Shown one piece after another: positions 8,870-35,448 of a DNA stretch of 38,150 nt; the stretch's first letter is position 1, and every line of letters starts with the position of its first letter. Source of the DNA: Lachnospiraceae bacterium (GTDB lineage: Bacteria > Bacillota > Clostridia > Lachnospirales > Lachnospiraceae); NCBI GenBank assembly GCA_017484135.1, contig JAFUTQ010000084.1, positions 1 through 38,150 on the forward strand, read 5' to 3'. Below the pieces are notes generated by a model. The model was not told the DNA's origin. It saw only the letters and a program-made list of their open reading frames with translations, and made no database searches. The position numbers were made by a program, and so were the translations under genes.

Positions 8870-9070
8870 GCAGGGGTGCGTATGGAATTTTTCCGGCTTA
8901 CGCCGGACGCACCCCGCGCGGCGGACAGGAGAGTGTGCTCTCCTGTCCGATCACATGCAGGGGTGCGTATGGAATTTTTCCGGCTTGCGCCGGACGCACC
9001 CCGCGCGGCGGACAGGAGAGTGTGCTCTCCTGTCCGATCATATGCAGGAATGCATATCGAATTTTTCCGG
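8870..9070 (+). repeat. 87-nt palindromic tandem repeat, 2.3 copies
   Basis: Units begin at GCAGG at 8870, 8957 and 9044, giving an exact 87-nt period. Copies 1 and 2 are nearly identical, and copy 3 is a diverged 27-nt start. Each full unit holds two hairpins. GGGGTGCGT (8873-8881) pairs with ACGCACCCC (8907-8915) around an inner CCGGC/GCCGG stem. CGGACAGGAGAG (8922-8933) pairs with CTCTCCTGTCCG (8938-8949) around a TGTG loop. The partial third copy supplies the left part of the MATE ribosome-binding site (CCGGAGGT). No U-tract follows the hairpins. Confidence 0.85.
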
Positions 9071-33432: not shown

Positions 33433-33900
33433 CTACCATCCCGTACAGCGATGATATCTGCAGCGTCTCTGGTACATTTCATGAAACAATAAAACCTTAA
33501 TTAAATCTGTCAGCCCATCGTTTCGCTCCGATGGCGGCGGTGGCGGCAGCGGTCGATCCGGTGACCCGGGCGGTCTCATCGGATCCGGTGCAGGCATATG
33601 CTGTGTTGCCTGCATATTTCCGGTTGCACGCTGATAAATGCGATCACACAAACGGTTCAAAAGCAGGCGGTCCGGATATTCGTCAAACATAAAGCTTCCT
33701 GCATATTCCAGCTGGTCACACTCATCCTCCACAATGCCCTGTACCTGCTTTGCCGAATTGGGGTACAGCTCCTTCATGCGCTCCAAATCCTTTCGGTACT
33801 CCAACTCCGACATGTAATAATCCTGCGGGCAGACGCCGGACAATATCCCATGATTCAACGTCTGCTGCATTTTCAAAAACTGTTCCTGACTATGATCCAC
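33433..33900 (-). CDS. Small conserved hypothetical protein, proline-rich
   Basis: The 155-residue protein starts at GTG 33900 (VDHSQEQFLKMQQTLNHGIL), behind AGGAG with an 8-nt spacer. It is rich in acidic and aromatic residues in its first 100 residues (DYYMSELEYRKDLERMKELY, CDQLEYAGSFMFDEYPDRLL). A proline run follows (PDRPLPPPPPSERND), then a Cys/Arg/His tail (MYQRRCRYHRCTGW). I do not recognise a domain. It is tightly linked to the large membrane-anchored gene and is likely its partner. A longer upstream reading would come from the palindrome and is not family-like. Confidence 0.65.
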   Translation of the reverse strand: MDHSQEQFLKMQQTLNHGILSGVCPQDYYMSELEYRKDLERMKELYPNSAKQVQGIVEDECDQLEYAGSFMFDEYPDRLLLNRLCDRIYQRATGNMQATQHMPAPDPMRPPGSPDRPLPPPPPSERNDGLTDLIKVLLFHEMYQRRCRYHRCTGW

Positions 33901-33927
33901 AACATACACTCCTAATGTTATTACTTT

Positions 33928-33955
33928 AGTATATGCACTTTTTTGATTTTGTGAC
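33928..33955 (-). promoter_or_regulatory. Possible promoter of the small gene and its partner
   Basis: Minus-strand -10 TATACT (33928-33933) and a partial -35 GTCACA (33950-33955), 16-bp spacer, next to the palindromic element. Confidence 0.4.
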
Positions 33956-33959
33956 CTGC

Positions 33960-34128
33960 GATTTGAGGGGCGATTTGAGGGGCAGAAGGTCATGCCGACG
34001 TAGTCGGCATTGACTCTTTGCGAAAGAAATCGGATCGGAAAACACGTTTTCCGAGACGATTTCCTTCGCAAAGTGTTCACATCGTTTCACGATGTGAACC
34101 TTCTGCCCCTCAAATCGCCCCTCAAATC
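33960..34128. repeat. 169-nt cloverleaf palindrome between convergently spaced operons
   Basis: Two perfectly complementary 31-nt arms (33960-33990 and 34098-34128) enclose three hairpins. The first is ATGCCGAC/GTCGGCAT (33992-34010). The second is a 17-bp near-perfect stem (34016-34032 / 34057-34073) with an inner TCGGAAAA/TTTTCCGA stem. The third is GTTCACATCGT/ACGATGTGAAC (34075-34099). The arms themselves contain a 12-bp direct repeat (GGGGCGATTTGA-type). There is no U-tract, so it is not a simple terminator. It lies between the patatin stop (34144) and the next promoter on the same strand. Confidence 0.9.
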
Positions 34129-34143
34129 TCCGTACAACTCTCT

Positions 34144-35448
34144 CTACAAATCCGAAACAGCGTGCAAAAAACATGCGGCTGCCAGCTCCTCCGGGAAAAC
34201 CGTCTGCAACATTGCCAACGCTTTGACTTCCACCCGGTCTTCCCTTAATGCGGTATAGATTCCGGCGACAATGCGCCGCACCTCGTTTTTCCACTTTAAT
34301 TCCGCCAGCACACCTGCCAGTTCTATATTCCCCTTTTTCAATATTGTATCAATATCATCCACGAAGTCAACATCCTTCAGTTTTTTTAATAACTCCTTCA
34401 TAAAATCCTGTATGCGGTATACGGGACGCACGTCCATCCCAAAGAAGGAGCCGCAGATTTCAGCCGCTGCCAGAAAATATTGTATTTCTGACATATAGGT
34501 CTTTCCGCTGCGCCCGGCAAGCGCCGTATGCACGCGGTTGAAATCCCCCTTTTTGTTCAGCTTTTTTGCAGGCGTATCCCGTACCACTGCCCAGTCAATA
34601 TACGCCATCCAACGCATAAAACGGATCACGCTCTTTCGCCTTGCCGTAATTCCGTCTTTATAAAACGTGTAAACATATCCGTAATACTCGCCGTATACCT
34701 TCATGGCATCCCGATATCCCATGTCGGCATTTTCCATCAGAAGCTCGTGGTCAAAATTCAGCATCGTGCCCAGCGGTCGGCTGGGTTTGATATAGGTTAC
34801 ATAAGGGCGTTTCTCATAATTCAGATGTGCCGGCGTGGTGTGCAGATCGACAGCGATAATCTGATCCGCTCCCATCCGGATTGCCAGACTGATCGGAAGA
34901 TTATCGTGATAGCAGCCATCCACATAGGTAATGTCTCCGATTTTATGCATCGGAAACAGCGGAAAAATTGCCGCCGAGGCAATCATGTAATCCTGAAGCA
35001 GTCCTTGGGGAATTTCCTCTCTTGTCATCTCACATGGTGTCATGGAAGGAAACTGTACTGTCACCAGTCCGTAGTCAATTTTTGACTCTCTGACACGCTC
35101 CTCCTGAATCATTTTGGCAATAAACGCAGAAAACGGCGAAATATCCGCCCCTTTATTTTTCAGGTATTTTTTCAGGAACGGACGAATCGCTTCCTTCTGT
35201 TCGATCATTCCCTCGATCGTGGTGGTCAGATTGATCCCATCCTCCATCATGTCGTCCATGGTAATGCTGTTCCACATCTGATAGGCTTTGTCATAATCCT
35301 CTGTCACCATCAGCGCACCATTGATGGCCCCGATGGAGGTACCGGTTACAATCTGATAATCCAGATTCAGTTCTCTGAGCGCTTTCCACACGCCCAGCTC
35401 GTAGGAGCCCTTTGTTCCTCCGCCGCTCAATGCTACTGCCCGTTTCAT
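34144..35448 (-). CDS. Patatin-like phospholipase
   Basis: The 434-residue alpha/beta hydrolase-like enzyme should cleave acyl chains from lipids. The oxyanion loop is ALSGGGTKGSYELGV (6-20), the nucleophile is Ser38 in GTSIG, and the second dyad residue is Asp177 in YVDGCYHDN. The common DGG/DGA is DGC here, which keeps the Asp. The N-terminal half is the patatin domain; the C-terminal half (about 260-434) is helical and not recognised. No signal peptide is present, so it should act in the cytoplasm or at the inner membrane face. It starts 9 nt after GH31, behind AGGAGG, and shares its transcript. The end runs up to the palindrome. Confidence 0.92.
   Translation of the reverse strand: MKRAVALSGGGTKGSYELGVWKALRELNLDYQIVTGTSIGAINGALMVTEDYDKAYQMWNSITMDDMMEDGINLTTTIEGMIEQKEAIRPFLKKYLKNKGADISPFSAFIAKMIQEERVRESKIDYGLVTVQFPSMTPCEMTREEIPQGLLQDYMIASAAIFPLFPMHKIGDITYVDGCYHDNLPISLAIRMGADQIIAVDLHTTPAHLNYEKRPYVTYIKPSRPLGTMLNFDHELLMENADMGYRDAMKVYGEYYGYVYTFYKDGITARRKSVIRFMRWMAYIDWAVVRDTPAKKLNKKGDFNRVHTALAGRSGKTYMSEIQYFLAAAEICGSFFGMDVRPVYRIQDFMKELLKKLKDVDFVDDIDTILKKGNIELAGVLAELKWKNEVRRIVAGIYTALREDRVEVKALAMLQTVFPEELAAACFLHAVSDL

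Follow-up and report, generated by a model that had tools for sequence, protein, structure and literature searches.

REP/BIME palindromes are intergenic and are present at high copy number, and parvovirus termini consist of a branched palindrome with hairpin-primed synthesis and inverted arms. Template switching in which a folded nascent strand acts as the primer has been described as the source of perfect stems formed in one step, loop inversion and compensatory changes, and parvovirus-type self-priming of terminal hairpins is named in the sections of that paper used here (PMC8794818). Long perfect inverted repeats that overlap coding sequence have been reported for nematomorph mitochondrial genes, as far as the excerpted text of that study goes (PMC6649704). 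In the excerpts of open-licence PMC literature among the matches listed, neither the element reported below nor copy-specific MITE stems were described.

The stretch of DNA analyzed here, referred to as the window, is 38,150 nucleotides long and comes from a Lachnospiraceae genome designated G000 (2.55 Mb, 116 contigs, 83% complete). Arms at positions 33960-33990 and 34098-34128 of the window are perfectly complementary over 31 bp and enclose a 107-nt interior, which folds into three hairpins at approximately 33989-34014, 34016-34073 and 34075-34099. The fold energy of positions 33930-34160 was -127.5 kcal/mol, compared to -56.7 +/- 4.8 kcal/mol for 200 dinucleotide shuffles (z = -14.7), none of which folded equally well. 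The arm match and the fold confirmed the description given in a first-pass annotation, in which complementary 31-nt arms close three hairpins, and the absence of a U-tract that it reported was also found on the gene side of the window copy (C91:33972R). The palindrome sits between two genes on the minus strand: a patatin-like phospholipase gene (34144-35448), with 15 nt between its stop codon and the element, and a downstream gene (33433-33903, GTG start placed by eye) that had no match in Pfam or NCBIfam and was not assigned to a family.

The outer 12 nt of the window copy, GATTTGAGGGGC (33960-33971), are a tandem duplication present on both arms, so the family element proper spans 33972-34116; the mirrored unit, GCCCCTCAAATC, lies at 34117-34128. 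Doubled 12-mers resembling this outer unit were also found at C68:10877 and C102:27264. All parts of the palindrome are given on the plus strand. The copy alignment defined the left arm of the family basal stem, GATTTGAGGGGCAGAAGG (33972-33989; family consensus GATTTGAGGGGCAAAAGG), and the right arm, CCTTCTGCCCCTCAAATC (34099-34116). The fold and the alignment together defined hairpin arm A, GTCATGCCGAC gta GTCGGCATTGAC (33989-34014), and hairpin arm C, GTTCACATCG tttca CGATGTGAAC (34075-34099). The middle hairpin (34016-34073) carries the inner asymmetry GGATC/GAGAC, which is the reverse complement of the more common GTCTC/GATCC form. The copy in the window thus keeps the family stem, which a mirrored 12-bp unit extends, and its middle hairpin is inverted.

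A DNA search of G000 returned 66 matches at approximately 40 distinct places, the main ones with 78-87% identity, and the same search of 97 other genomes matched G005 alone, and weakly. A covariance model of 145 positions was generated from 28 aligned G000 copies. This model returned 143 matches in G000 at E <= 0.01, on both strands, which were condensed to 89 places; this count omits the seven weakest distinct places and one further place that overlapped, and it includes two places on C1 that share sequence with one another. Many copies matched the model on both strands. When the model was applied to 60 other genomes with stricter filters, only G005, which belongs to the same genus, was matched, at seven places, and six other genomes of the genus gave no match under these filters. 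An exact-pattern scan of GTDB-species genomes yielded 17 stretches, 15 of them from five Lachnospiraceae genomes, and a follow-up of six genomes with the model found copies in four further Lachnospiraceae genomes, besides G005, and none in two. Carriage by a virus, plasmid or phage was considered and rejected: at the sensitivity used, the family had no match among plasmids or phages, nor, by exact pattern, among viral contigs. Internally deleted remnants that keep the family end were also present in G000. The first-pass annotation had proposed a search for further copies and had weighed the case of a single, unconserved copy; what was found was a multi-copy palindrome, with 89 places in G000 and copies in relatives.

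The ends of the element were assessed in relatives and in G000. Among the relatives' copies, 48 of 49 could be anchored, and 33 of these 48 end in TTGAGTTTCC on both sides, with up to two changes allowed. Direct repeats (at least 6 bp; 7-12 bp were found) flanked 19 of the 33 copies with both ends, compared to a mean of 1.4 and a maximum of 6 when the flanks were re-paired. As found in these relatives, the element resembles an ordinary MITE. The G000 copies that keep the family stem GATTTGAGGGGCAAAAGG, 32 or 34 depending on the cut-off, carry GATTTGAGGGG terminal inverted repeats, and their flanks displayed a 7-bp direct-repeat register above shuffles (z 4.1), perfect in 4 of 32. Six repeat lengths were tried in G000 and 7 bp alone stood out, flank lengths of 5, 6, 8, 9 and 10 giving no clear signal (z <= 1.3); at the window copy, no direct repeat was seen by eye. 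The element is short, non-coding, dispersed in many copies and bounded by terminal inverted repeats, as MITEs are, and we conclude that the palindrome is very probably a MITE-like mobile element, a family that would have spread by means of a transposase acting in trans. The "miniature mobile element" suggested at first pass was supported by the 89 places, the inverted and direct repeats of the relatives and the 7-bp signal in G000.

The fold is conserved among copies. In the 28-copy alignment, 96.6% of cells were paired. Covariation was found at 32 of 56 pairs, which had changed on both sides, compared to 8-15 in slid versions and with none of 500 shuffles scoring as high; these controls are somewhat flattering, because the structure was predicted from the same alignment and the copies are related, and relatedness alone can raise covariation scores. 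The middle hairpin was inverted in 8 of 66 copies, not inverted in 42 and undecided in 16, and the loop of arm C read TGAAA in six copies versus TTTCA in 45. Matches on both strands and inversions of single hairpins are more readily explained by a palindrome at the level of DNA than by an RNA gene.

An unexpected feature of G000 is that the three-hairpin core of approximately 110 bp is decoupled from the basal stem. Stems were assessed in the 77 of 89 copies that could be re-anchored, the other 12 giving no stem; an alternative measurement gave 79 copies with a stem and 10 of 89 without. Non-family basal stems of at least 21 bp were found in 32 of the 77 copies (28 to 35 depending on the cut-off). 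Four of the 32 touch contig ends, and away from contig ends the longest copy-specific stem reached 71 bp. Stems of at least 25 bp were present in 40 of 79 G000 copies versus none of the 48 copies measured in relatives, where the longest stem by the same measure was 21 bp. Among the 32 non-family copies, identity of the inner stem was 0.39 at core identities of at least 90% (21 pairs), 0.37 at 80-90% and 0.39 at 70-80%, and a Mantel comparison of stem and core likeness gave r = -0.10 (p = 0.96, 31 copies). The two arms of each non-family copy matched each other at 95% over the inner 16 nt, and 480 of 33,015 cross-copy arm pairings reached 15 nt. For family stems, identity was 0.78-0.87 whatever the band of core identity, which is partly by construction because resemblance of the stem was the criterion for this group.

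A scan of long contigs totalling 400 kb gave 16 rows of hairpins whose stems reached at least 20 bp; 14 of these rows lay at family copies, and the other two belonged to a second family. In a 353-kb set made up of the surroundings of copies and the window, five further perfect stems of at least 15 bp were found, two of which are derivatives of the cloverleaf family. A one-hairpin derivative at C82:2141-2245 (L093) carries arm C alone on 22- and 28-bp stems that were not seen elsewhere among the copies read. The second palindromic family, of approximately 139 bp, has GCTG..CAGC ends, conserved flanking aaaca/gtcc and paired stem changes; it is found at C17:51232-51370 (L210), C61:92075-92212 (L215), C42:5473-5611 (L221) and about a dozen more places. 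It had no Rfam match in L210, a tRNA elsewhere in that locus excepted, and it was rejected as a second case of copy-specific stems, its own stems being largely conserved. A separate repeat in the window (8870-9070), located where a membrane-protein-like ORF begins, consists of 2.3 copies of an 87-bp unit; the unit holds the inverted repeats CCGGCTTGCGCCGG and CGGACAGGAGAG..CTCTCCTGTCCG.

The composition of the copy-specific arms was assessed in a 34-copy non-family set, also used for the motif and stem-likeness work, which includes the family-like C68:9331 and C68:10877. Read inward, the inner 24 nt or so of these arms were G-rich, a feature that 195 control gene ends did not show. This composition suggests that targets are preferred, that the stem is constrained or that the inner modules derive from the element. 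GGG starts peaked at 10-12 and 21-25 nt from the core, approximately one helical turn apart, and an AGGATGG motif was common to a few stems. Three further candidates were rejected. G-quadruplex targets were considered on the basis of a G2x4 motif in 18 of 34 arms, compared to 9 of 195 control gene ends and 13.6 in composition shuffles, a weak signal because composition accounts for much of it. Stop codons as the boundaries of stems were striking by eye, but, in a grouping that also takes in family-stem copies with longer stems, stem length and stop distance gave rho 0.21 (p 0.23), and stems ended within 12 nt of a stop in 17 of 34 cases versus 13.9 by permutation (p 0.13). Lack of SbcCD as the cause of long stems was assessed with an SbcD model, which exceeded its cut-off in 5 of 12 genomes and fell below it in G000 and six others, including G098, which has many short-stem copies.

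Copies were mostly intergenic and near gene 3' ends, as judged from mechanical ORFs, and only four stems reach at least 12 nt into a long neighboring gene without the frame running into the core. Two stems take in the last codons of the adjoining gene together with its stop, mirrored on the far side. At C113:34390, a 46-bp perfect stem holds TGG GAG AAA CGA GAA TTG TAA, the last six codons and stop of a gene that has an 82%-identical paralogue; the paralogue has a similar ending (4 of 6 residues) without the mirrored arm, and what follows its stop may be a decayed element. At C42:3650, a stem with 7 mismatches or gaps in 58 extends into the threonine synthase gene (thrC), whose protein ends in FLGNA, and all seven homologues from the genus have FL, but no more than that, at the corresponding position, except one that has FLG. 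Because these endings recur in part in the paralogue and in the genus homologues, respectively, the gene-side arm probably came first at both loci. At C53:4261 the C-terminal residues within the arm are not common to homologues, and at C89:6334 the overlap of arm and gene is only 12 nt, too little to inform. Judged from their sequences, the two gene-end loci support a copying of flank into the opposite arm, and they are not proof of it for other stems; no clean empty site or empty allele was found for the long-stem loci, and for that reason flank copying stays inferred. At another copy, C44:35085 (L049), an ORF of approximately 311 codons continues across the entire stem as far as a stop codon within the core, and its C-terminus may therefore be encoded by the element.

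These observations can be accommodated by the following model. A single strand of the element would fold into the basal stem and three hairpins, and the folded core would bring the nascent 3' end against the opposite arm. Synthesis, now hairpin-primed, would then switch template, and the other arm would receive a reverse-complement copy of flanking DNA, which in two cases is a gene's 3' end. Template switching of this kind would make, lengthen and maintain perfect stems and would occasionally invert a hairpin, and both of its signs, mirrored stems and inverted hairpins, are present. A non-coding MITE-like palindrome with template-switched copy-specific stems is probably the best explanation of the data; for template switching as the maker of those stems, we put the chance at somewhat above even. 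The G-rich inner 24 nt stands against a purely host-derived stem, since random host DNA would differ. It is conceivable, though doubtful, that the core moves without any stem and, wherever it lands, builds a new perfect one by using the host flank as template for synthesis that it primes. If so, insertion would carry an inverted target duplication, and rolling-hairpin-like movement or growth would take place in a bacterial chromosome.

Other origins of the stems were weighed against template switching. If the element were an ordinary MITE only, the copy-specific stems would be terminal repeats of long standing, driven apart under selection to stay paired, and the cores would have been kept alike by gene conversion. 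A small set of stems that are mutually alike (scores up to 15 versus a shuffled maximum of 9) and have cores approximately 72-83% identical would suit such a history, as would the GGGG box that family stems also carry at a like distance from the core. However, family stems are 78-87% identical at every core distance (partly by construction), so stems do not generally evolve fast, and gene-end sequence within two arms is unexpected of a terminal repeat; we regard this origin as unlikely. It is very improbable that long hairpins, such as terminators, came first and that the core inserted into their loops. Such hairpins would account for copies near gene 3' ends and for C13:15007 (L064), where a family-stem copy is enclosed, beyond unpaired spacers of unequal length, by inverted-repeat arms of at least 28 bp (by eye), yet the 400 kb contained no coreless stem of at least 20 bp except the two second-family copies. 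At 46 gene ends, no U-tract followed the stems (mean T 0.27 vs 0.25), and coding sequence in an arm is unexpected of a terminator. The reading of the element itself as an intrinsic terminator was not supported, only 1 of the 46 gene ends having at least five T in eight.

A structured RNA at 3' ends, which would end transcription without a U-tract or protect mRNA and whose stems would be perfected by selection, draws on the strong covariation and on the position of the copies. A facing stop lies within approximately 80 nt or inside the element in 48 of the 54 copies in class II and 20 of the 25 in class I, a coarse grouping based on mechanical ORFs of at least 100 codons, some perhaps not genes, in which class II includes family-stem copies with longer stems and very short stems are also counted. 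By our own reckoning, however, random gene order already gives approximately three quarters of gaps a facing 3' end, and stem length was not significantly tied to stop distance (rho 0.21, p 0.23). No Rfam 15 family reached its gathering score for the repeat in the window, in L037 and L045, two loci with copies, or in L210; the only scoring match among the latter three was a tRNA away from the repeat, and the best sub-threshold match was a microRNA model (36.8 bits vs 113). Together with the matches on both strands and the inverted hairpins, these results make a structured RNA at 3' ends improbable. The three-option reading of the first-pass annotation stands in part, with the miniature mobile element retained and a structured RNA, in the sense of a known family, not supported.

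Approximately thirty long, mostly unrelated stems thus surround a common core in one genome. If template switching made them, they form a natural experiment on the origin, growth and continued pairing of hairpins, which are otherwise studied through the reconstruction of ancient events. They also advise caution, in that compensatory changes in bacterial palindromes need not imply selection for RNA.

The element shares with bacterial MITEs its short length, lack of coding sequence, many copies, terminal inverted repeats and, in relatives, direct repeats, but differs in having three internal hairpins and, in G000, a basal stem that is copy-specific and decoupled from the core. Like REP/BIME palindromes with their RAYT (TnpA-REP), it is an intergenic palindrome in many copies; however, it is much longer, and a REP/RAYT system was rejected, the Y1 transposase (PF01797) having 0 matches in the 83%-complete G000. 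It resembles parvovirus-type self-priming, by analogy only, in its branched palindrome, inverted arms and proposed hairpin priming. Long perfect inverted repeats over coding sequence are shared with the nematomorph genes, but those are mitochondrial and intragenic, with no repeated core mentioned in the excerpted text of that study (PMC6649704). With the template-switch hairpins, as presented in the sections used here, the element would have in common perfect stems made in one step, compensatory changes, loop inversion and priming by the nascent strand; those hairpins were reconstructed in RNA genes (PMC8794818), whereas here such switching would recur at many copies of one mobile element, with stems of up to 71 bp away from contig ends.
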